A DNA stretch of 55,552 nt from Candidatus Saccharicenans sp. (GTDB lineage Bacteria > Acidobacteriota > Aminicenantia > Aminicenantales > Saccharicenantaceae), in the NCBI GenBank assembly GCA_030018265.1, contig JASEFX010000014.1, forward strand, positions 1 through 55,552, given 5' to 3'. Position numbers and translations under genes: made by a program. Under the pieces are notes generated by a model. That model ran no database searches. It was not told the origin of the DNA and saw only the letters and a list, made by a program, of their open reading frames with translations. Shown here one piece after another: positions 10,546 through 42,344 of the stretch (positions are counted from its first letter, which is position 1; each line of letters opens with the position of its first letter).

Positions 10546-10554
10546 AAGGCTGCC

Positions 10555-10706
10555 GGGTTCAAGGCAGGTATCCTGACTCCCGGGTCATCCTCCTCCCTGG
10601 CCTTCCCACCCCGCAGGGCAGTGGCCTTCTCAGGGATTCGTCGCCGGTTACAGTAGCGGGGGCTGTGTCCGGTTTTCACGGACTTCCCTGCGTCCTGAAC
10701 CCCGAA
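10555..10706 (-). ncRNA. Cobalamin (adenosylcobalamin-type) riboswitch
   Basis: The transcript on the minus strand carries the conserved aptamer blocks in order. These are GGGAAgtCCGTGAAAACCGG, ACAGCCCCCGCTACTGTAAC, the GCCACTG block, GGGAAGGCC, and the B12 box ending in GAGTCAGGATACCTGCC. The paired CCTGCGGGGTGGG region lies between them. It sits in the leader of the TonB receptor gene, starting near the predicted transcription start and ending about 80 bases before the start codon. Binding of a corrinoid is expected to lower receptor synthesis, probably by blocking the ribosome binding site, since no strong terminator follows. Confidence 0.93.
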
Positions 10707-10712
10707 GTCTAA

Positions 10713-10740
10713 ATTCTAGCACTTTAAGGCAGGCAGTCAA
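10713..10740 (-). promoter_or_regulatory. Sigma70-type promoter of the riboswitch-receptor transcript
   Basis: On the minus strand TTGACT (10740-10735) and TAGAAT (10718-10713) are separated by 16 bp. Transcription would start near 10706, right at the 5' edge of the cobalamin aptamer. That gives a leader of about 230 nucleotides. The promoter overlaps the stop codon of the upstream beta-propeller fragment. Confidence 0.65.
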
Positions 10741-32092: not shown

Positions 32093-32435
32093 AAAAGCAA
32101 GAATCGCAGTCATCGGAGACCGGGACATCTGCGCTCCTTTTGCGGTCTTCGGCCTGACTGTTTTTACGCCCGGAGATGTTGAAGAAGCCCGGTCAATGCT
32201 GACGCAGGTGGCAGAGGAGAAATTTCCCATCTGCCTGATCCAGGAAACCTGGCTGGAAACTCTGAAGGCGGAGGTGGCCGAGCTCAGCCAGAAAACAGCT
32301 CCGCTCTGCGTCGGGTTTTCTGATTTCCGGGCGATTTCAGAATCGGTGCAGAATCTTATGAGAGAACTTTCGATAAAAGCCACCGGTTCAGATTCACTTT
32401 TTGCCAGAGGAAGGAAAGAAAATGAAACAAGGTAA
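32085..32435 (+). CDS. ntpF: V-type ATPase subunit F
   Basis: The protein has 116 residues with a small Rossmann-like fold: [20 protein letters not shown] at the start is the expected subunit F signature. An acidic helix ([15 protein letters not shown]) and a second strand ([10 protein letters not shown]) follow. Subunit F binds the central shaft (subunit D) and modulates ATP hydrolysis. In Enterococcus naming it is NtpG. It overlaps the end of ntpC by eight bases and the start of ntpA by 14 bases, so all three are likely to be translated as a coupled set. Confidence 0.92.
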
Positions 32436-34167
32436 GATTATTCGCGTTGCCGGTCCCCTGGTGGTGGCTTCCGGGTGTCTCGGAGCCAAGATGTATGATA
32501 TGGTCAGGGTTGGCCATATCGGTTTGATTGGCGAAATCATCGAGCTTGACGGGGATAAAGCTTACATTCAGGTCTATGAGGATACCACCGGAATCGGTCC
32601 GGGCGAGCCGGTCATCCTGACCGAGAAGCCGCTGTCGGTGGAACTGGGTCCGGGAATTCTCGGCACGATTTACGACGGCATACAGAGACCGCTGGATGTG
32701 ATCCGGGCCAGGGTCGGAGACTTTGTCACTCGCGGGGTTGAGGTTCCGGCGCTCGACCGCGAGAAACGCTGGCACTTCCATCCGCTGAAAAAGGCGGGAG
32801 ACAGGGTGCTGGCCGGAGATATCGTCGGCTATGTGCAGGAGACGCCGTTGATCCAGCACCGGATCATGGTTCCGGAACAGGCCGACGGAATAATTGAGGA
32901 GATAAAAGAAGGAGAATTTTCAGTAACCGAGACTGTCTGCCGGGTGAAGACGGACTCCGGCGAAATAAAGGAATTTACGCTCTTCCAGGTCTGGCCCGTG
33001 AGAAAACAGCGTCCGGTGAAGGAAAGGTTGATGCCGGTCGAGCCGCTGGTGACAGGCCAGAGAATCCTGGATACTCTTTTTCCTCTGGCCAAGGGCGGAA
33101 CTGCCTGCGTACCCGGTCCTTTCGGCAGCGGGAAGACGGTGGTTCAGCATCAGCTGGCGAAGTGGTCGGACGCCCAGATCATAGTGTATGTTGCCTGCGG
33201 CGAGCGCGGAAACGAAGTGGCTGACCTGCTGCTGAGCTTTCCGGAACTCAAGGACCCGAACACCGGCCGGCCGCTGATGGAAAGAACAGTGATCATCGCC
33301 AACACTTCCAACATGCCGGTGGCCGCCCGCGAGGCTTCAATCTACACCGGGATGACGATTGCCGAATATTTCCGCGACATGGGTTATTCGGTGGCTCTGA
33401 TGGCGGATTCCACCTCCCGCTGGGCGGAAGCGCTCAGAGAAATAGGCGGTCGCATGGAAGAGATGCCGGGCGACGAAGGTTATCCGGCCTATCTTGCCAG
33501 CCGTCTGGCTGAGTTTTACGAGAGAGCCGGCAAGGTGGTCTGCCTCGGCTCTGAGGAAAGGACCGGCGCGCTGAGCGTCATCGGCGCGGTCAGCCCGCCG
33601 GGAGGCGACCTGTCCGACCCGGTGGTTCAGGCGACCCTCAAGGTGGTCAAAGTGTTCTGGGCTCTCGACGACCGGCTGGCCAACATGCGGCATTTTCCAG
33701 CCATCAACTGGCTGCAGAGTTATTCGCTGTACCGGGACATTCTGAAAAAATATTTTTCAGAAAAAGTGGCTGAGGATTTCGTTGAACTCAGCCAGGAGGC
33801 GATGAAGCTTCTCGAGCTTGAAGCCGAACTCCAGGAAATCGCTCGACTGATAGGTGTGGAGTCGCTTTCTTACAAAGAAAGGCTCATTCTGGAGACCGCC
33901 CGGTCGATTCGCGAGGATTTTCTCCACCAGAACGCTTTCCATCCGCAGGACACTTACACCTCGATGCACAAGCAGTACCTGATGCTGCGGACGATTCTCC
34001 ATTTCCATCACCGGGCGAATCAGGCTCTGGATGAAGGAAAAGAATTCAGCCAGATTGTTTCTCTGGAAGTACGCGACCGGATTTCGAAGATGAAATATTT
34101 ACCCGAGGATGAGGAAGCGCTGCTTCAGGTGGAAAAAGAAGTGGACGCTTCTTTTAAAACACTTTAG
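32422..34167 (+). CDS. ntpA: V-type ATPase catalytic subunit A
   Basis: The ATG at 32422 is preferred because GAGGAAGGAAAG precedes it; it yields 581 residues. The P-loop is GPFGSGKT (232-239). The catalytic glutamate lies in ACGERGNEV, and the non-homologous insert typical of A subunits (about 110-200) is present with [31 protein letters not shown] is the expected block, and [11 protein letters not shown] follows. The subunit hydrolyses ATP to drive ion pumping, or makes ATP when run by a sodium gradient. Direction cannot be told from sequence. It is cytoplasmic in the V1 head, alternating with B. Confidence 0.97.
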
Positions 34168-34184
34168 GCTTGAAGGTGAGACCG

Positions 34185-35549
34185 ATGCGCAAAGAATATT
34201 TAACAGTCTCCAACATAGTGGGACCTCTGGTCATCGTGGAGAAAGTTTCCGACGTAAAATACAACGAGCTGGTGGAAATTGAGGATTTGCGGGGAAACAT
34301 CCGCCGGGGAACCGTGCTCGAAGTCTCGACCGAGCAGGCGGTGATCCAGGTGTTCGAGGGAACGGTCGGACTCGACATCGCCAAATCAAGAGTGAGATTT
34401 CTCGGCCGGTCGCAGCAGCTTCCGGTCTCGGAGGAAATCATCGGCCGCGTTTTTGACGGTTCCGGCCGGCCGCGCGACAACGGACCTCAAATCATCGCCC
34501 GCAAATACCTCGACATCAACGGCAGCCCGATCAACCCGGATGCCCGCGATTATCCTTCAGAATTCATCCAGACCGGCATTTCCGCCATCGACGGAATGAA
34601 CCCGCTGGTGCGCGGACAGAAGCTGCCGATTTTTTCCGGAAGCGGTCTGCCCCATCCACGAATCGCCGCTCAGATCGCCCGTCAGGCGAAGGTTCTGGGG
34701 AAGGAAGAAAAGTTTGCCGTGGTCTTTGCGGCGATGGGCATCACCTTTGAAGAAGCCAATTTCTTCATCGAGGATTTCCGCCAGACCGGAGCTCTGGAGA
34801 GAGCCGTTCTCTTTCTGAACCTGGCCAACGAGCCGGCGATCGAAAGAATCGCCACGCCGCGTCTGGCTCTCACCTGCGCCGAGTATTTAGCTTTTGACCT
34901 GGATATGCATGTGCTGGTTATTCTGGTTGATATGACTTTTTACGCGGAAGCCCTGCGGGAAATTTCAGCGGCCAGAAAAGAAATCCCGGGAAGACGCGGC
35001 TACCCCGGTTATCTCTACACGGACCTGGCCACGATGTACGAAAGGGCCGGCAGGATAAAAGGCAAGAAGGGCTCGATCACGATGATTCCGATCCTGACCA
35101 TGCCCGAGGACGACAAGACACATCCGATTCCGGACCTGACCGGTTACATCACCGAAGGACAGATCATTCTCAGCCGGGAACTGCACCGCAAGGGAATCTA
35201 TCCGCCGATCGACGTTCTGCCCAGCCTTTCACGTTTGAAGGATAAAGGTATAGGAACCGGAAAGACGCGCGAGGATCACGCCGACGTCCTGAATCAGCTG
35301 TTTGCCTGTTATGCCAGAGGCAAGGAAGCAAGAGAACTCGCTCTGATTCTGGGAGAAGCGGCGCTGACCGACCTTGACCGGCTTTACCTGAAGTTTGCCG
35401 ACCTTTATGAGAATGAATTTGTTCGACAGGGAGAATTTGAAGCCCGGAGCATCGAGCAGACGCTTGATCTTGGCTGGAAACTCATGCGGATGCTGCCAAA
35501 AACCGAACTGAAGAGAATCAGGCCGGAATTCCTGGAAAAATATTATTGA
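34185..35549 (+). CDS. ntpB: V-type ATPase subunit B
   Basis: The ATG at 34185 follows AAGGTGAG; the frame is open five codons further upstream. The 454-residue protein has the degenerate nucleotide loop [18 protein letters not shown] that distinguishes B from A subunits. [20 protein letters not shown], the block [20 protein letters not shown] and [13 protein letters not shown] are diagnostic. The C-terminal helical domain ends with [14 protein letters not shown]. It forms the alternating non-catalytic positions of the head. It follows ntpA by 17 bp. Confidence 0.97.
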
Positions 35550-35580
35550 TTAGAGATGCAAATAAGGAACCGGAGGCAGG

Positions 35581-36192
35581 ATGAAGCTGAAAGTTAATCC
35601 AAACCGGATGGAACTTCTCCGGCTGCGGCGCCGTCTGGCGCTGGCTGAAAGGGGACACAAGCTGCTTAAGGACAAGCTGGAAGAACTCATGCGGCAGATG
35701 CTCGAAGCTTCGCGGCGTCTGGCCGAGCTCCATGAACGGGTTGACCGGGAATTTGAAATAATCACCAGAGCGACGGCTCTATTTCGAATCGGACACTCTT
35801 CTTCCGAACTTCAGGAAATTTTGCCTGAGGGAGAACTCGAGCTGGAGGCGAAGAAAAGTCGCCTGCTGAACCTGACCGTTCCGGATTTCGAACTTATCTC
35901 TTTCGATCCCGGCCATTATGATCTCGTTCAAACTGAAAGCGAGCTGGACGTGGCTGTTAAACATTTCCGTCAGGTGCTGACGGAGCTTCTGGAGTTCTGC
36001 AGCCTCTGGAAAAAACTTGAGCTCTTAGCTCACGAAATTGAAGTGACCAGAAGAAGAGTTAACGCTCTTGAATATATTTTAATTCCCTCCCTGAAAGAAA
36101 CCATCCGCTCGATCTCCGCCCGCCTGGAAGAGATCGAACGTTCCTACCAGGTCCAGCTGATGCGGGTGAAGGAGATCGTCAGACACCACTAA
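35581..36192 (+). CDS. ntpD: V-type ATPase subunit D (central shaft)
   Basis: The protein has 203 residues and consists of two long helices. VNPNRMELLRLRRRLALAER at the start and ARGH-like LLKDKLEEL are typical, and the second helix has EIEVTRRRVNALEYILIPSL, the most conserved segment of the family. It turns inside the A3B3 head. The start has GGAGGCAGG. The stop codon lies within a Rho-independent terminator, so this is the last gene of the operon. Confidence 0.95.
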   Translation: MKLKVNPNRMELLRLRRRLALAERGHKLLKDKLEELMRQMLEASRRLAELHERVDREFEIITRATALFRIGHSSSELQEILPEGELELEAKKSRLLNLTVPDFELISFDPGHYDLVQTESELDVAVKHFRQVLTELLEFCSLWKKLELLAHEIEVTRRRVNALEYILIPSLKETIRSISARLEEIERSYQVQLMRVKEIVRHH

Positions 36193-36215
36193 AAATAGTG
36201 GTCTAAAATTTTTTT
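36181..36215 (+). terminator. Rho-independent terminator of the V-ATPase operon
   Basis: ACCACTA and TAGTGGT pair around AAAA, and a G-C and an A-T pair can extend the stem past a small bulge. A run of seven Ts (36209-36215) follows after AAAA. The stem overlaps the ntpD stop codon. Confidence 0.7.
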
Positions 36216-36250
36216 ACACAAAAAAAAGTATAAAAATTGAAAAAAAAGTA

Positions 36251-36278
36251 TTGACATAATAATAAAATGCTGTATATA
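36251..36278 (+). promoter_or_regulatory. Strong sigma70-type promoter of the ligase-GNAT-KamA cassette
   Basis: A consensus TTGACA (36251-36256) is followed after 16-18 bp by TATATATA (36273-36280). The surroundings are very rich in A and T, including A-tracts upstream that could act as an UP element. The leader to the first gene is about 90 nucleotides. Together with the terminator just before it, it separates the cassette from the V-ATPase operon. Confidence 0.7.
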
Positions 36279-36376
36279 TACAATTGAAAAATGAAAAAAA
36301 TGGATGAGACTGAAAGCAGCGATTTAAAAAATTTCGGGGGAATGAGTTCGAAAAAATTTTAACGGCGAGAAAAAAC

Positions 36377-37495
36377 ATGAAAATCGCTTTGCTTTTCAGC
36401 TCGAAAGAAGGGATGGCCAGGACGATACGGCCATTTCTTTTTGAAGAAAGGGCAGAGGAAGGCGAAGACCCTCCACCTGATTTGTTAGCTGAATGTGACA
36501 GCGACGAAACGATCGCTGCCGTTCAGCGAGCGCTGGAGACCTTTCACCGGGTTGTTCCGATCGAATCAGACGAACAGGCTTATCTGCGTCTGATGGAAGA
36601 AAAACCCGACCTGGTTTTTAACATAGCGGAAAGACTTTTCGGGCCGAATCGCGAGTCTCACATCCCCACCATTTGCGAGGTGCTGAACATTCCCTACACC
36701 GGGTCAGACCCGCTGACTCTCGGCATCTGTCTCGACAAATCGCGGGCGAAGGAAATTCTGAGTTATTACGGAATTCCCAACCCGCCTTTTATAGTTATCG
36801 AGAAGCCGGAAGATATTCCGGACAACCTTGTTTATCCGCTGATCGTAAAGCCACTGTATGAAGGGTCGAGCAAGGGAATCAAAAACAACTCGGTCGTTCG
36901 CAGCCGGACCGAGCTTGAAGAAAAAATAAAGGAGATCAACCGGTTGTATCAACAGCCGGCGATTGTGGAGAAATTTCTCAGCGGACGTGAATTTACCGTC
37001 GGCATTCTCGGAAATTATCCGGAAATCGAAGTTTTGCCGATTGTCGAGATAGACCACAGCCAGCTTCCAGAGGGAGCCAGCCCGATCTATTCGTACGAAG
37101 CCAAATGGGTCTGGGACAGACCGGAAAATCCACTGGAAATCTTCCGCTGTCCGGCGGAGATTCCGGAAGAACTTAAAAATCAAATAGAAGAAACAGTCAG
37201 GGAAACCTGCCGCATTCTCAGAATCCGCGACTGGGCCAGGATTGACCTCAGGCTGGATGAGTGCGGTGTGCCGAACATTCTGGAAGTCAACCCACTGCCC
37301 GGTATACTGCCTAATCCGGAAGATAATTCCTGCCTGCCGAAAGCAGCCCGGGCGGCAGGTTATACCTATGATCAATTGATCAACCGGGTGGTTCTGGAAG
37401 CCTGCCGGAGATACGGCCTGCCGGTGGAAACTGAATTCCCGGTCTTCGCCCGGTTCGCCAGTTCTCCCGGGCTCGGAGGAGCCGATGGCCACTGA
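36377..37495 (+). CDS. D-Ala-D-Ala-ligase-like ATP-grasp enzyme, first copy
   Basis: The protein has 372 residues with the three-lobed fold of D-alanine-D-alanine ligase. It keeps the ATP-grasp core: YPLIVKPLYEGSSKGI (ATP lysine and glycine-rich loop), QPAIVEKFLSGREFTVGIL, IYSYEAKWVW, and the metal-binding DLRLDECG...ILEVNPLPG. Two substrate features of true Ddl are changed. The N-terminal Ser-x-Glu that holds the first D-Ala amino group is replaced by KIALLFSSKEGMARTI, and the loop after EVNPLPG reads ILPNPEDNS instead of the usual MT..SL pattern. It therefore probably joins other amino acids or a carboxylate and an amine. It begins a four-gene cassette in which every gene overlaps or nearly touches the next. 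It is cytoplasmic. Confidence 0.85.
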   Translation: MKIALLFSSKEGMARTIRPFLFEERAEEGEDPPPDLLAECDSDETIAAVQRALETFHRVVPIESDEQAYLRLMEEKPDLVFNIAERLFGPNRESHIPTICEVLNIPYTGSDPLTLGICLDKSRAKEILSYYGIPNPPFIVIEKPEDIPDNLVYPLIVKPLYEGSSKGIKNNSVVRSRTELEEKIKEINRLYQQPAIVEKFLSGREFTVGILGNYPEIEVLPIVEIDHSQLPEGASPIYSYEAKWVWDRPENPLEIFRCPAEIPEELKNQIEETVRETCRILRIRDWARIDLRLDECGVPNILEVNPLPGILPNPEDNSCLPKAARAAGYTYDQLINRVVLEACRRYGLPVETEFPVFARFASSPGLGGADGH

Positions 37496-38516
37496 TGGTT
37501 TGAAGGTAGGAGTGGCTTTTAACACCTACGAGCCCTACATCTATCGCCCGGAAAAAGTTTCCGAAGATTCCGTAGCCAGAGTGGCTGAGGTGGTCTGCGA
37601 AACTCTGAACCAGGCGGGAGTTCCAGCGGTGCTGATTCCGCTCCAGCGCAGCATGTTCACTTTTCTCCGGCGTATAAAGGAGCTCGAAGTTGATGTTGTG
37701 GTGAATCTCTGCGAGGGCTTTTTTGGCCGTCCGCAGTGGGAAGCCAACGTGGCTGCGGTTATGGAAGTCCTGTATATTCCGTTTACCGGTAACGGCTCGA
37801 GAACGCTCGCGCTCTGTCAGGACAAACATCAGGCGAAGGCTATTCTCAGCTCGTTCAACCTTCCGGTGGCCCCAAGCCAGCTGATCACCTCGGCCGAGGA
37901 GATGGTCGACCTGAGATTTCCGGTGATCGTCAAACCTAATTCTGAAGATGCCAGCGTCGGTGTCCATCCGGAATCCGTGGTTTATGATAAAGAGGCTCTG
38001 GCCGAACGCGTGGAAAAAATCGTCAGGACTTACAGCCAGCCTGCGATCGTTGAAGAGTTCATCGACGGCCGCGAATTCAATGTGGCTTTGCTCGAAGATG
38101 GAGAGCCGAGGGCGCTGCCTGTTTCCGAGATAGATTTTTCCACGATGCCCGAAGGCTTTCCGCGGATCTGCAGCTATGAAGCCAAATGGTATCCGGACCA
38201 TATTCTCTATAAAACAACCGTTCCTATCTGCCCGGCTCGGATCGATGAAGAACTCCGCCAGAAACTGCAGGAGCTGGCGGTCACGGCCTTCAGGGTTATG
38301 GGCTGCCGGGATTATGCCAGGGTGGATTTCCGGATGAATGATCAGGGTGAAATTTTCATACTCGAAGTCAACCCTAACCCGGACATCAGTCTCGATGCCG
38401 GTTATGCCCGGGCGCTGAGAGCGGCCGGCATAGAGTACGCCGAGTTCTGGAAAATGATGATAAGAAACGCCCTGAAAAGGAAGGAAAACAATGCTGCGGC
38501 CAATGGCAAAAGATGA
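37485..38516 (+). CDS. D-Ala-D-Ala-ligase-like ATP-grasp enzyme, second copy
   Basis: The protein has 343 residues and overlaps the previous gene by 11 bases. It shares the layout of the first copy: DVVVNLCEGFFGRPQWEANV (compare the D(L)VFN.AE block), IPFTGNGSRTLALCQDKHQA, FPVIVKPNSEDASVGVHPES, and EIDFSTMPEGFPRICSYEAK. The metal site is VDFRMNDQG...ILEVNPNPDI. The end of the active-site loop (NPNPDISLDAGY) differs both from Ddl (SPGMT) and from the first copy, and the Ddl Glu near the N-terminus is absent. Two different ligases in a row suggest two successive or alternative peptide-bond-forming steps. The genes look like an old tandem duplication. Confidence 0.85.
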   Translation: MATDGLKVGVAFNTYEPYIYRPEKVSEDSVARVAEVVCETLNQAGVPAVLIPLQRSMFTFLRRIKELEVDVVVNLCEGFFGRPQWEANVAAVMEVLYIPFTGNGSRTLALCQDKHQAKAILSSFNLPVAPSQLITSAEEMVDLRFPVIVKPNSEDASVGVHPESVVYDKEALAERVEKIVRTYSQPAIVEEFIDGREFNVALLEDGEPRALPVSEIDFSTMPEGFPRICSYEAKWYPDHILYKTTVPICPARIDEELRQKLQELAVTAFRVMGCRDYARVDFRMNDQGEIFILEVNPNPDISLDAGYARALRAAGIEYAEFWKMMIRNALKRKENNAAANGKR

Positions 38517-38973
38517 TCGCCAGCCGGTGCTTGAACTCATCCGGGCAACCGGTTTTTTCAACGAGGCGGAGATTCAGGTGGCGACGGAGTTGATCGATAT
38601 TTACCTTAATAATCCTGACCAGCGCGACTACCACATTGTGGTGGTCGAAGATGAGAGCGGAAATGTGGCTGGCTACATGACCTACGGGCCGACCCCCCTG
38701 ACCGAGGGGACCTGGGACCTTTACTGGATTGCGGTTTCCCCCGGGGCGCAGGGCAAAGGTTATGGCCGGCAGCTCGTCAACTGGCTCGAGGACCGGGTCA
38801 GGGAAAGCGGGGGGAGGCTGATACTGATCGAAACCTCTTCCCAGCCGAAATATCTGCCAACCAGGAAATTTTATGAAAAACTCGGATACGCCGAAATTGC
38901 CCGGATACCGGACTTTTACCGTCCGGAAGACGACCGGGTTATTTTCGGCAAATATTTTCGCTCAAAGGAGTGA
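38491..38973 (+). CDS. GNAT-family N-acetyltransferase
   Basis: The protein has 160 residues and overlaps the second ligase gene by 26 bases. The GNAT core is clear: strand beta4 DLYWIAVSPGAQGKGYGRQL has the acetyl-CoA pyrophosphate loop (Q/RxxGxG as AQGKGYG). GGRLILIETSSQPKYLPTRK and FYEKLGYAEI follow as motifs of the C-terminal half. It should acetylate a primary amine. In known organisms lysine 2,3-aminomutase pairs with a beta-lysine acetyltransferase (AblB) to make the osmolyte N-epsilon-acetyl-beta-lysine. AblB is larger (about 270 residues) and of another GNAT subgroup, so this gene may be a functional analogue or act on the ligase product. Confidence 0.85.
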   Translation: MLRPMAKDDRQPVLELIRATGFFNEAEIQVATELIDIYLNNPDQRDYHIVVVEDESGNVAGYMTYGPTPLTEGTWDLYWIAVSPGAQGKGYGRQLVNWLEDRVRESGGRLILIETSSQPKYLPTRKFYEKLGYAEIARIPDFYRPEDDRVIFGKYFRSKE

Positions 38974-38985
38974 AAAGAGGAGATC

Positions 38986-40089
38986 ATGGAAGACTGGCAA
39001 CGAATCCTGCGCGAGAGCCTGAGAACGCCCGAAGAAATTGCCGAGCGCTTCGGGCTGGAGGTGGAAGAGGTCAGAAAGATCGGGCGGGTGTTCAAAATCC
39101 AGATTACTCCCTACTTTGCAAGCCTTATCAAGAAAAAAGGCGATCCGCTGTACAAACAGGTGGTTCCGGACATGGCAGAGCTGGCTGAGAATTCTGGCGA
39201 GGAAGATCCGCTCGAAGAAGACCTCGATTCTCCTGTGCCCAGCATCGTCCACCGTTACCCCGACCGGGTTCTGTTTCTGGTTTCTCACAGCTGCGCTTCC
39301 TACTGCCGTTTCTGCACCAGAAAAAGAAAAGTCGGCGACCCGAGCAAAATACACCCGCGTTACATAGAAGACGGGATCCATTACATAAAGGACCACCCTG
39401 AAGTTCGCGATGTCATCATTTCCGGTGGCGACCCGCTGATTCTGAACGACGATAAACTGGAGGCGATCATAAGCAGCGTGCGAGCTATCCCGCATGTGGA
39501 GATCATCCGCATCGGCAGCCGTGTGCCCTGCTTCCTGCCGCAGAGGATAACTGAAAAGCTGGTCAACATGCTGAAGAAGTATCACCCGCTTTATATGAAC
39601 GTACACTTCAACCATCCAGACGAGGTAACTCCGGAAGCAGCTAAGGCGCTGAATATGCTGGCTGATGCCGGAATCCCGCTCGGCAACCAGACGGTTCTCC
39701 TGCGGGGCATCAACGATGATGTCATGACTATGAGAAAGTTGATGCAGAAGCTGCTCGTGGTCAGAGTGCGTCCGTACTACATTTACCAGGCGGATTATGT
39801 TAAAGGAACCGACCACTTCCGCACGACTGTGGAGAAAGGGCTGGAAATCTACCAGGGACTCAGAGGCTGGACCTCAGGTCTGGCCGTGCCGCATTACGTG
39901 ATCGACGCTCCCGGCGGCGGAGGGAAAATCCCGCTGATACCGGAGTACGTCCAGTCGATTTCCGACGAGAAGGTGGTTTTAAGGAATTACGTCGGCGAGA
40001 TTTACGTTTATCCGCAGGTGAAAACGCAGAAGAAGAGAAGACCTCGCGCCCAGACTCCCTGTTACGCCGCTCAGAGCCAGCAGCTCTGA
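38986..40089 (+). CDS. Lysine 2,3-aminomutase (KamA family radical SAM)
   Basis: The protein has 367 residues and would convert L-lysine to beta-lysine using SAM, a [4Fe-4S] cluster and PLP. Cluster cysteines are Cys103, Cys107 and Cys110 in CASYCRFC. Lys314 in PGGGGKIP holds PLP. The two aspartates that recognise lysine in the Clostridium enzyme (Asp293 and Asp330, PLP lysine 337) are matched by Asp270 (YQADYVKG) and Asp307 (VIDAPGG). The spacings of 37 and 7 residues are identical. It is about 50 residues shorter than the clostridial enzyme, mainly at the N-terminus. GAGGAG precedes the start, 12 bases after the GNAT stop. As last gene of the cassette it points to beta-lysine as a building block. 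Confidence 0.9.
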   Translation: MEDWQRILRESLRTPEEIAERFGLEVEEVRKIGRVFKIQITPYFASLIKKKGDPLYKQVVPDMAELAENSGEEDPLEEDLDSPVPSIVHRYPDRVLFLVSHSCASYCRFCTRKRKVGDPSKIHPRYIEDGIHYIKDHPEVRDVIISGGDPLILNDDKLEAIISSVRAIPHVEIIRIGSRVPCFLPQRITEKLVNMLKKYHPLYMNVHFNHPDEVTPEAAKALNMLADAGIPLGNQTVLLRGINDDVMTMRKLMQKLLVVRVRPYYIYQADYVKGTDHFRTTVEKGLEIYQGLRGWTSGLAVPHYVIDAPGGGGKIPLIPEYVQSISDEKVVLRNYVGEIYVYPQVKTQKKRRPRAQTPCYAAQSQQL

Positions 40090-40139
40090 CCCGGTTTAAT
40101 CCAGGCTCGCAGGGGGAAAGAGCAGGGTCGGTTTTTTCC

Positions 40140-42344
40140 TCAAAGCTGCTGAAACTGACGCAGGTATTCAGCCAGCCCGACCTGCTGCAAAATGGCAAGA
40201 GCTTCCTCGTTGCTCACTCCTCTTTTCAGCCTGAGCGATTCGAGAATTCTGATTATCGACAGCGCCACTTCGGCCGTCTGGCCGGCCACCTGCTGTTTGT
40301 CCTTCAGAAATTCAATCGAGTCGAAAAGCACGGCATTGGCTTCACCGTAACTGATTTCGGCTCTTCTGCCGTATTTTTTAATCCAGTCCGGTTTTCTCAG
40401 GCAGTCGTTCACATGTGATTGAATCAGGTAGGTGGCGCGCCCGATGAGCTTCAGGTTGCTCGGGCTGACGTTTGTCATCGTGTTTCCGATCACCCGACCG
40501 AGCCTGGCCATCACGGCGGTCGAATGAGCGTTGAGCACCATTTTAAGAGCGATGTTCTGTTTCAGCAGGAACGGGTCGTTTTCGCGGTCTACGTTCAGGC
40601 TGATGAACACAGGAGATTTCTGCTCTCCTGAGGCGAATTTTCTGTACGCCTCGTTTATTTTATTTTCCAGGGCTACCGTCTGTTTCTCGCTGAGGTTGTT
40701 TACGCTGACCACAACCAGACTGGCCTGTTTTCCCAGAAAAAGTTGAGCAAACTGGCTGAATGGAGAAGAGGCAGCCAGCAGTTGATTTTCTTCCGGGGTG
40801 AGACAGACCACCACGCCCAGGTCTCCGGGTTTTGGCCCTCGTTTTTTAAGATTAAATTCGGCAAACGAAAAATCGTAAAGGTCCTGCTGGTTGTCTCCGG
40901 CTTTTTTCAAGCTTTCCAGGGCAGCTCGCCGCAGGTACGGGTCTTCGACTTCTTCCTCGAAAGGCTTCCGGTAAAATTCTTCCCTCAGTCCCCGGAATGG
41001 TCGGCCAAGGAAGTTAAACCAGGCCTGTTTTCTGTCTCTGGCCGGAGTCCAGACCTGTATCCAGCATTTGCGCTCCGGCTCTTCCACAGTGTCCAGAGGA
41101 AAGAGTCTGAAGGTCGGGCTGCGCTCGGTGCTGTCGATGAAAACGGTGATGAGCGCTTTTTCCGCGAAGTAGGTTGAAAAGCGGTTGCTGGCGTAAGTGC
41201 TCGATTCGAGCTCGGTCCAGGCGGCGATGGCCGGAACCACGTTTTTAATCCTGTTCAGTATGCGGGGAAAATCTCTAAGAGTTTCCACCGGGTCGTATTT
41301 CCGGCTGAAGCCGGCTCTCCTCAATTCCTTTTCGTTCAGGAAACCCGAAAGGAGCTCATAAACAGCCGACTGGAGCGCGGCGCCCACGACGTAGGTTTCT
41401 ATGGTGGTGGCCTGCATCCGGGTCGAACCGGTTATGGCCATCGGTCCGGTGGTCAGGTTGATTTTTGTTATTCCTTCTTCCTCAAGAACCCCGCGGCTGC
41501 GGTCAAAAGGACGCAGTCGGTCGTCCGGGTTGTTGTAAACGAAATAGAGCTTCTTCCGGCTTTCTTCCGGCCGGTAACCCGGCGATTGCTTCCACTGTTT
41601 CAGAGCTGTCAGGATTGTGCCGATGACCGAAGATGTTTCTCCGCCTTCGGTGACGCAGATGACCAGGTCTCCTTTTTTGATGCCGTGGTCGAGAAGCTGA
41701 AGACGCCCGATAAGCTGAAGGTCCTCAAAACCCTCGAGCGAGGAGATGAGCGCCCGGTCGCCTCCGGTCATCTCGCCGATCAACCTGTCGGCTATATCCG
41801 GACCGAGATTCTTTTCAACCTTCAGCCAGAGGTTCCTGTCCTGGCGCAGCGAATTCCAGAAGGGCCTCCAGAAAGTGCTTTCCATCTGTTTCGCCAGGCG
41901 TCCGGTGGCTCCGCAACCGTAGATGTATATCTTGTTTCCTTCAAGGATGGTCTTTCTTATTTCTGAAGAAAGCGTCCGGAGAACCGCGGGACTGGCAGCC
42001 AGCTGTTCCAGCCGGCTGACGATGTCCTCGTCGACTGAGAAAAGCATGTGCAGGCCGGCCGGGATGTCAGTTCTTATCCTTTCACTCAGGTTCCAGGTTT
42101 TCGGGTGACGCTGTTCGGTCAGAAGCGTATGGAGTTGAAACTGGGTTTTGTTCTGAATGTAGTCAAGCGATTCGGCCGGAACCTCGAGGCCCAGAAGAGC
42201 CAGCAATCCCGAGCTGGCTGAAACCGGTTGCTGTTCCTGCGAGAAGATGGCCGGAGCAAATAGAATACCTACTACAATAGTAGGAATTATCAAAATGCCG
42301 GCCAGCCGGGTCTGAAGAAATTTATTTCTCTTTGTTATTTTCAT
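40140..42344 (-). CDS. SIS-domain protein of the MurQ/GKRP superfamily with signal peptide
   Basis: The protein has 734 residues. Residues 1-35 form a signal peptide (basic start, hydrophobic core, then FAPAIFSQEQQ). The body resembles N-acetylmuramic-acid-6-phosphate etherase and glucokinase regulatory protein. It has IYIYGCGATGRLAKQMES (first SIS loop), SLEGFEDLQLIGRLQL, VICVTEGGETSSVIGTI, and GPMAITGSTRMQATT. A later segment, TAVMARLGRVIGNTMTNVSP followed by NLKLIGRATYLI, is the MurQ-type closing region. Two SIS units are likely, as in GKRP. MurQ works on phosphosugars inside the cell, so an exported form is odd; the substrate may be an unphosphorylated or cell-wall sugar. It may be a lipid-free periplasmic enzyme. 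Confidence 0.75.
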   Translation of the reverse strand: MKITKRNKFLQTRLAGILIIPTIVVGILFAPAIFSQEQQPVSASSGLLALLGLEVPAESLDYIQNKTQFQLHTLLTEQRHPKTWNLSERIRTDIPAGLHMLFSVDEDIVSRLEQLAASPAVLRTLSSEIRKTILEGNKIYIYGCGATGRLAKQMESTFWRPFWNSLRQDRNLWLKVEKNLGPDIADRLIGEMTGGDRALISSLEGFEDLQLIGRLQLLDHGIKKGDLVICVTEGGETSSVIGTILTALKQWKQSPGYRPEESRKKLYFVYNNPDDRLRPFDRSRGVLEEEGITKINLTTGPMAITGSTRMQATTIETYVVGAALQSAVYELLSGFLNEKELRRAGFSRKYDPVETLRDFPRILNRIKNVVPAIAAWTELESSTYASNRFSTYFAEKALITVFIDSTERSPTFRLFPLDTVEEPERKCWIQVWTPARDRKQAWFNFLGRPFRGLREEFYRKPFEEEVEDPYLRRAALESLKKAGDNQQDLYDFSFAEFNLKKRGPKPGDLGVVVCLTPEENQLLAASSPFSQFAQLFLGKQASLVVVSVNNLSEKQTVALENKINEAYRKFASGEQKSPVFISLNVDRENDPFLLKQNIALKMVLNAHSTAVMARLGRVIGNTMTNVSPSNLKLIGRATYLIQSHVNDCLRKPDWIKKYGRRAEISYGEANAVLFDSIEFLKDKQQVAGQTAEVALSIIRILESLRLKRGVSNEEALAILQQVGLAEYLRQFQQL

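Follow-up and report, generated by a model that had tools for sequence, protein, structure and literature searches.

The four-gene cassette

In a 55,552-nucleotide stretch of DNA from the acidobacterium Candidatus Saccharicenans sp. (GenBank assembly GCA_030018265.1, contig JASEFX010000014.1, positions 1 to 55,552 of the forward strand; hereafter the window), four closely spaced genes encode two ATP-grasp ligases related to D-alanine-D-alanine ligase (Ddl), a GNAT acetyltransferase and a KamA-family lysine 2,3-aminomutase. The comparisons presented here make us almost certain that these genes constitute a conserved functional unit. The genome, labelled G000, belongs to the Acidobacteriota and is 90.6% complete. 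The genes, which we call DdlA, DdlB, GNAT and KamA, and the region in front of them are as follows (lengths in amino acids, aa):

36193..36376, + strand: A+T-rich intergenic region 5' of the cassette; possible TTGACA box at 36251-36256 (by eye)
36377..37495, + strand: DdlA-type ATP-grasp ligase (ligase 1), 372 aa; Pfam PF07478, E 3.8e-35
37485..38516, + strand: DdlB-type ATP-grasp ligase (ligase 2), 343 aa; Pfam PF07478, E 1.6e-34
38491..38973, + strand: GNAT acetyltransferase, 160 aa; PF00583 (Acetyltransf_1), E 3.5e-16
38986..40089, + strand: KamA-family lysine 2,3-aminomutase, 367 aa, LAM_C domain shortened; Pfam Radical_SAM and LAM_C

A preliminary description of this DNA, made from its letters alone, had noted both the tight packing and the four protein types. 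The open reading frames (ORFs) do follow one another with an 11-base overlap, a 26-base overlap and a 12-base gap, and Pfam identifies Dala_Dala_lig_C in both ligases, Acetyltransf_1 in the third protein and Radical_SAM with LAM_C in the fourth.

Conservation and co-occurrence

The nearest named records are those of Candidatus Aminicenantes, Saccharicenans and related metagenome-assembled genomes (L004-L016), with DdlB identities of 81-86% in 11 of the 13. The sample comprised 931 genomes of five phyla, one of them archaeal, and a DdlA profile matched strongly in 103, a count that includes five centre genomes already known as carriers. By phylum, these were 16 of 199 Acidobacteriota genomes (the phylum of the window; E < 1e-140), 53 of 296 in the phylum of L017 (Kryptonia; E up to 1e-100), 14 of 198 in that of L018 (Deltaproteobacteria), 13 of 44 in that of L021 (Chlamydiae) and 7 of 194 in the archaeal phylum of L019 (Woesearchaeota; E < 1e-130). 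We fetched 75 neighbourhoods, covering 20 of the 53 for the phylum of L017 and including five archaeal loci with weaker matches only. The 70 with a match above 400 bits are counted here as DdlA loci, and a gene is called nearby if it lies within 6.5 kb on either strand.

Recurrence of the four genes as neighbours in relatives had been set beforehand as a test, and they recur across phyla. KamA is nearby in 49 of the 70 DdlA loci and all four genes are present in 35, on one strand in 30 loci and most commonly in the order DdlA-DdlB-GNAT-KamA (26 loci). For the three successive gene pairs, the profile matches are separated by no more than 60 bases in 26, 25 and 23 of 28 loci. The 21 DdlA loci without a nearby KamA comprise 11 with polyamine genes, five with a lone DdlA, two with DdlB and GNAT only (L191, L192) and three cut by contig ends (L208, L232, L244); the genome of L232 has the other three grouped on a separate contig (L283). 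Next to the lone DdlA genes lie a small unclassified gene and one that resembles RNA methyltransferases (named by eye), and KamA is found elsewhere in all five of these genomes. Our search of the open-licence full-text literature, by title and start of abstract, returned no description of the four-gene set, and an earlier mention is possible.

The proposed link between ligases and aminomutase is supported by this recurrent adjacency and by gene fusion: in four archaeal genomes (G205, G280, G308, G369) KamA and DdlA form one uninterrupted frame of 697-722 aa. The two genes also occur together at the genome level. By profile search and uncorrected for kinship, KamA was found in 26 of 26 genomes with DdlA and in 39 of 101 without it (8 of 21 in a 52-genome search and 31 of 80 in a second genome set), where "without" means no match at phylum-specific profile thresholds; the five archaea with weaker DdlA-like matches only, none of which has KamA, were excluded from the comparison. 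At a threshold of at least 488 bits, the lowest carrier value and one picked afterwards, the figures are 26 of 26 and 11 of 101. G000 itself holds one KamA at E 1e-40. Pairwise distances of the four proteins correlate across 30 loci (r 0.80-0.88, Mantel p 0.001), which fits co-inheritance.

We also opened 20 KamA regions, 16 of them in DdlA genomes with KamA away from DdlA and four in genomes without strong DdlA. All four of the latter have an adjacent ligase-like gene, and three (L286, L288, L289) carry a "version 2" cassette, KamA-ligase-ligase-GNAT, with other ligase loops. Among four further short KamA loci from genomes without strong DdlA, a DdlB-type gene is present in one (L293).

The wider neighbourhood bears on the idea of a peptide product that is secreted as an antibiotic or signal. 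When the neighbours at the 75 loci were clustered and the 45 largest clusters named by eye, the most frequent proved to be lineage-specific housekeeping genes, such as a RecG-like gene at 13 loci within a single phylum. Among these clusters, none of the families of transporters, resistance proteins or regulators exceeds five of the 75 loci; an ABC-transporter-like ATPase family and a response-regulator family, each at five, are what speaks for secretion in this sample. Beta-lysine is a component of known antibiotics, and lone relatives of the ligases are carried by mobile DNA. One scan found DdlA-type loci on two contigs (L296, L297), with no match to KamA, GNAT or a second ligase in the stretches covered, whose source was viral. 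Plasmid records with a ligase match at E 1e-20 number 456, of which 397 are from Enterococcus; at the three rhizobial places opened (L306-L308), one ATP-grasp gene stands alone, unaccompanied by the rest of the cassette. However, the wide distribution of the cassette argues against a secreted product as does the scarcity of transporters, which leaves the antibiotic option of the preliminary description unsupported, and we consider a secreted antibiotic or signal very improbable.

Two ligases with altered Ddl pockets

The ligases are predicted to have the Ddl fold. Models built by AlphaFold2 with 10 sequences each have a mean predicted local distance difference test score of 83.4 for DdlA and 85.3 for DdlB. 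In Foldseek the best PDB match of each is a Ddl (E 3.6e-25 and 1.2e-24, respectively), and the matches listed for both models are all Ddl-family. The NCBIfam scores of 147.2 bits (DdlA) and 146.9 bits (DdlB) nevertheless fall far under the Ddl cut-off of 245.65. We compared 70 DdlA, 63 DdlB and eight canonical rows, numbered on E. coli DdlB (K-12 record), so that statements about the pocket rest on alignment columns. Equivalents of Lys97, Lys144, Glu187, Lys215, Arg255, Asp257 and Asn272 are nearly invariant in both types, and the cassette enzymes thus appear to share with the Ddl family the predicted fold and the ATP-binding and catalytic core.

The substrate pocket differs from that of the Ddl family. 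In the E. coli enzyme His63, Glu68, Tyr216 and Ser281 have canonical active-site roles, and all four are present in each of the eight canonical rows. At the His63 column, by contrast, Glu is found in 70 of 70 DdlA and Glu or Asp in 63 of 63 DdlB; Tyr216 is replaced by Trp (70/70 and 61/63) and Glu68 is retained in just five DdlA and seven DdlB. Nearly all DdlB have Glu at the His63 column, as DdlA does. Thr273 is mostly Pro, and an Arg occupies position 259 in DdlA and nearly all DdlB. Ligase 1 has a longer loop. It keeps Ser281 in 68 of 70 rows, and DdlA therefore probably still accommodates two substrates of the amino-acid type. In ligase 2, Ser281 is rarely retained (5/63, Ala in 48/63), Gly276 is mostly replaced (Asp in 50/63) and Ser150 is Ala or Gly in 61 of 63; these changes indicate that its second-substrate site differs. 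The window proteins follow the pattern, with Trp244 and Glu85 of ligase 1 at Tyr216 and His63, and Asp300 and Ala305 of ligase 2 at Gly276 and Ser281. These assignments of substrate roles are inferred from the residue roles of the E. coli enzyme.

Two features of the pocket had been reported in the preliminary description. The altered active-site loops, EVNPLPGILPNPED and EVNPNPDISLDAG, are found in the ligases as quoted. The second feature, a missing Glu for the first D-Ala, is not confirmed. This residue is Glu15 in the E. coli enzyme, and its column contains Glu39 in window ligase 1 and Glu27 in window ligase 2. Across the alignment Glu is present there in 69 of 70 DdlA (one gap) and 26 of 63 DdlB, in a column so loosely aligned that only four of the eight canonical rows have Glu.

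In a tree of 91 rows, seven of them DdlB, a branch of length 2.39 (support 100/100) sets the 86 non-canonical rows apart from five canonical Ddls. DdlA and DdlB types are mostly separate within the non-canonical part, and the tree program warns that long branches, including the canonical root and the "version 2" ligases, are unsurely placed. G000 has three Ddl-like genes: the two cassette ligases and a third at C13:37101-37904, which is canonical, with His63, Glu68, Tyr216 and Ser281 in place. The cassette ligases are therefore not the sole Ddl of the organism, a point that the preliminary description had named as decisive and that falls in its favour. That they act as D-Ala-D-Ala ligases is unlikely.

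The aminomutase and the acetyltransferase

Aligned with the solved lysine 2,3-aminomutase 2a5h, the window KamA has Asp270, Asp307 and Lys314 at the two lysine-binding aspartates and the lysine that holds pyridoxal phosphate. As the preliminary description had said of the window protein, the spacing is exact; these residues are invariant, 37 and 7 positions apart, in 30 of 30 cassette KamAs compared, as are the radical SAM CX3CX2C cysteines. The window protein scores 309.3 bits against TIGR00238 (cut-off 199.2) and 481.6 bits against the AblA equivalog TIGR03820, under its cut-off of 525.4. Pfam matches 57 of the 127 LAM_C positions. On the strength of these residues KamA likely makes beta-lysine.

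Beta-lysine is also used to modify elongation factor P (EF-P), and a further possibility is that KamA serves EF-P beta-lysylation (EpmA/EpmB, also YjeA/YjeK) with the other three genes as unrelated neighbours. EpmB belongs to the KamA family, and the two systems share an aminomutase with a short C-terminal domain. The window KamA is closer to AblA than to EpmB, however, reaching 243.2 bits against an EpmB cut-off of 369.3. The fusion with DdlA and the recurrent adjacency likewise speak against chance neighbours. EpmA exceeds its cut-off in one of 34 carriers, which is not the window genome, and because no match reaches the cut-off in the other 33 we regard an EF-P role as extremely unlikely. 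One study describes YjeK as a truncated lysine 2,3-aminomutase and divides the aminomutase family by gene neighbours into ablB-linked and efp-linked groups (PMC2821294). The cassette is a third genomic context for the KamA family beside these two.

The family profile of the acetyltransferase finds its nearest solved relative in 2r7h (E 2e-47), which its depositors named 'putative D-alanine N-acetyltransferase'. The AblB family is not among the 10 NCBIfam matches of the window GNAT at E 0.001.

A variant with polyamine genes

In the phylum of L018 the gene company of DdlA is a different one. At 11 of its 14 loci a gene for pyruvoyl-dependent arginine decarboxylase lies 5' of DdlA on the same strand, with agmatinase at eight loci and deoxyhypusine synthase at seven. 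Between the profile matches of decarboxylase and DdlA lie 20-40 bases in seven of the 11 and up to 490 in the others; at L241 the two ORFs overlap by four bases, and at L235 an ATP-grasp gene lies between them. Decarboxylase, agmatinase and deoxyhypusine synthase all exceed their curated cut-offs at L241, and the L235 deoxyhypusine synthase falls under its own. An extra ATP-grasp gene adjoins the cassette at L235:8134-9057, L248:13070-13984, L250, L252 and L253, with an invariant IAWEWEYD near its start and weak RimK-like matches. In the eight polyamine-type genomes that we opened KamA lies elsewhere, beside a small gene of a recurrent family that resembles a MerR-type regulator (by eye).

These loci raise the possibility that the product is an amide of a polyamine (agmatine, putrescine or homospermidine) with amino acids, acetyl-capped, in which beta-lysine is one building block or an alternative to the polyamine. 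The presence of the three polyamine genes beside DdlA, the short spacing and the ORF overlap are consistent with this proposal, and across phyla the decarboxylase is found in 30 of 42 DdlA genomes and in 10 of 38 without DdlA. In addition, the Asp that replaces Gly276 in DdlB could bind an amine. The neighbourhood, however, was seen in one of the five sampled phyla, 12 of the 42 DdlA genomes have no decarboxylase, and the polyamine genes may merely have a promoter in common with DdlA. We judge this polyamine-amide reading to be unlikely.

The archaeal variant and a possible cell-wall role

Five of the eight archaeal DdlA loci add an unnamed gene near the ligases (L202:12194-13585, - strand; L203, L206, L207 and L208). 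Its product of about 440-470 aa has a conserved GKDS motif and conserved cysteines; two members scanned gave no Pfam match and a PDB search no match. Four of the five members match MurL weakly (best E 3e-12), and the score of 45.7 bits against NF041275 (MurL) is far under the cut-off of 700. MurL is an ATP-using enzyme that epimerises the terminal Glu of a peptide (PMC8788868, PMC5808125). A MurL-like gene at these loci thus argues for a peptide product. At one of them a gene of the ornithine/diaminopimelate/arginine decarboxylase family lies between the MurL-like gene and KamA (L206:5458-6834, - strand).

A peptide product need not be free, and the preliminary description had allowed for a cell-wall peptide. 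Such a product would be a wall or envelope peptide with beta-lysine, as a modified D-Ala-D-Ala or cross-bridge, and it is suggested by the predicted Ddl fold of the ligases, by the MurL-like gene, which recalls the alternative peptidoglycan pathway of MurL and MurD2, and by the name given to 2r7h. The Mur ligases point the other way. The Mur_ligase_M domain, which is found in folate enzymes too, has five to six matches in each of four bacterial carriers but one weak match (E 1.7e-11) among the eight archaeal carriers. With no Mur ligase match in seven of eight archaeal carriers, the archaeal loci depart from the MurL/MurD2 pathway, and a wall role is unlikely. Besides the cassette ligases, G000 and all three further bacterial carriers that were checked have a canonical Ddl. 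The wall option is not supported, and we hold it to be quite improbable.

A proposed beta-lysine peptide or amide pathway

We envision the cassette as a single metabolic module. KamA, judged by its conserved residues, would convert L-lysine to beta-lysine. DdlA, derived from the D-Ala-D-Ala ligase fold, would by way of an acyl phosphate link beta-lysine with a second amino acid. DdlB, with its altered second-substrate site, would attach a further residue or an amine, and GNAT would acetylate an amine that is still free. The outcome would be a beta-lysine-containing peptide or amide, small, acetylated and located inside the cell, most likely a solute or a polyamine-like protective compound. The comparisons establish the unit and its conservation, the co-occurrence and fusion, the catalytic residues that are retained and the predicted fold, whereas the substrates, the order of the steps, the acetylation of the product and its physiological role are inferred. 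As a whole, this intracellular pathway is the explanation that we favor, with somewhat better than even confidence. That at least one of the ligases joins beta-lysine to something is the firmer part and appears probable, whereas we would put even odds on an acetylated small peptide or amide that is retained in the cell. The polyamine variant, the MurL-like gene and the distribution of Mur_ligase_M together make a small, unattached peptide or amide more plausible than a wall peptide. The preliminary description was right in large part: the conserved unit, the lysine-type KamA and the link between ligases and KamA are supported, and the absence of Glu15 and the antibiotic and cell-wall options are not.

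Several observations weigh against this proposal. The substrate of KamA could be a diamino acid other than lysine. Polyamine genes replace KamA at 11 of the 14 loci in the phylum of L018, so that beta-lysine need not be the partner there. The GNAT of the cassette is found in no archaeal locus, another GNAT type being present in two. In five genomes of the phylum of L017 (L227-L230, L233) DdlA has no DdlB, GNAT or KamA nearby, and 15 of the 16 KamA regions opened in DdlA genomes where KamA lies apart from DdlA show no cassette gene nearby, the remaining one (L283) having GNAT and DdlB. Finally, species descent alone would partly yield the distance correlation, and kinship could similarly affect the uncorrected KamA-DdlA co-occurrence counts.

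The proposed product would be analogous to, yet distinct from, the osmolyte N-epsilon-acetyl-beta-lysine. The ablA/ablB pathway for that compound likewise places an aminomutase with lysine-type residues next to an acetyltransferase. The cassette, however, adds two ATP-grasp ligases, its GNAT has no AblB match in NCBIfam and its KamA falls under the AblA cut-off. An acetylated dipeptide solute, the osmolyte N-acetylglutaminylglutamine amide (NAGGN), is made by an ATP-grasp enzyme and a GNAT, although its pathway uses enzymes other than those of the cassette and is not known to include an aminomutase.

More tentatively, and with the odds against us, we suggest that the cassette represents a widespread, unseen class of metabolites: beta-lysine peptides or beta-lysine/polyamine amides, built by two dedicated Ddl-derived ligases, with the role of a core solute inside the cell or of a stand-in for polyamines. 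The class would span four bacterial phyla and archaea of the Woesearchaeota/Nanoarchaeota type, the latter with a MurL-like epimerisation step. If this is true, a metabolite that nobody has sought is made by many bacteria and archaea whose record is chiefly metagenomic, and annotation needs correction, since family searches label the cassette enzymes as cell-wall Ddl. It would also give lysine 2,3-aminomutase a third genomic role besides the ablB-linked and EF-P-linked ones and provide testable enzymes for the synthesis of beta-amino-acid peptides.

The upstream region and other features of the window

The preliminary description had placed the cassette behind a strong promoter of its own and after a terminator, and both claims look weak. 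A pattern scan of 35500-40500 gave four promoter-like sites, near the 3.4 in shuffles, with one on the + strand near the cassette start (36180-36209, 9/12). By eye, a perfect TTGACA is visible at 36251-36256 with TATATA 16 or 18 bases downstream, an arrangement that the scan rule excludes. The same scan called nine terminators (6.3 in shuffles), none of them on the + strand 5' of the cassette. Visual inspection shows a 6-bp hairpin at 36185-36202, followed some bases later by a T-run. An Rfam search of the window found no RNA family at the cassette. Directly 5' of it, at 32401-36192 on the + strand, lie genes for V/A-type ATPase subunits A, B and D (named by eye from translations), and ATPase-related genes also adjoin the cassette in three close relatives (L186-L188). 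Elsewhere in the window, Rfam identifies a cobalamin riboswitch at 10546-10719 on the - strand (112 bits).

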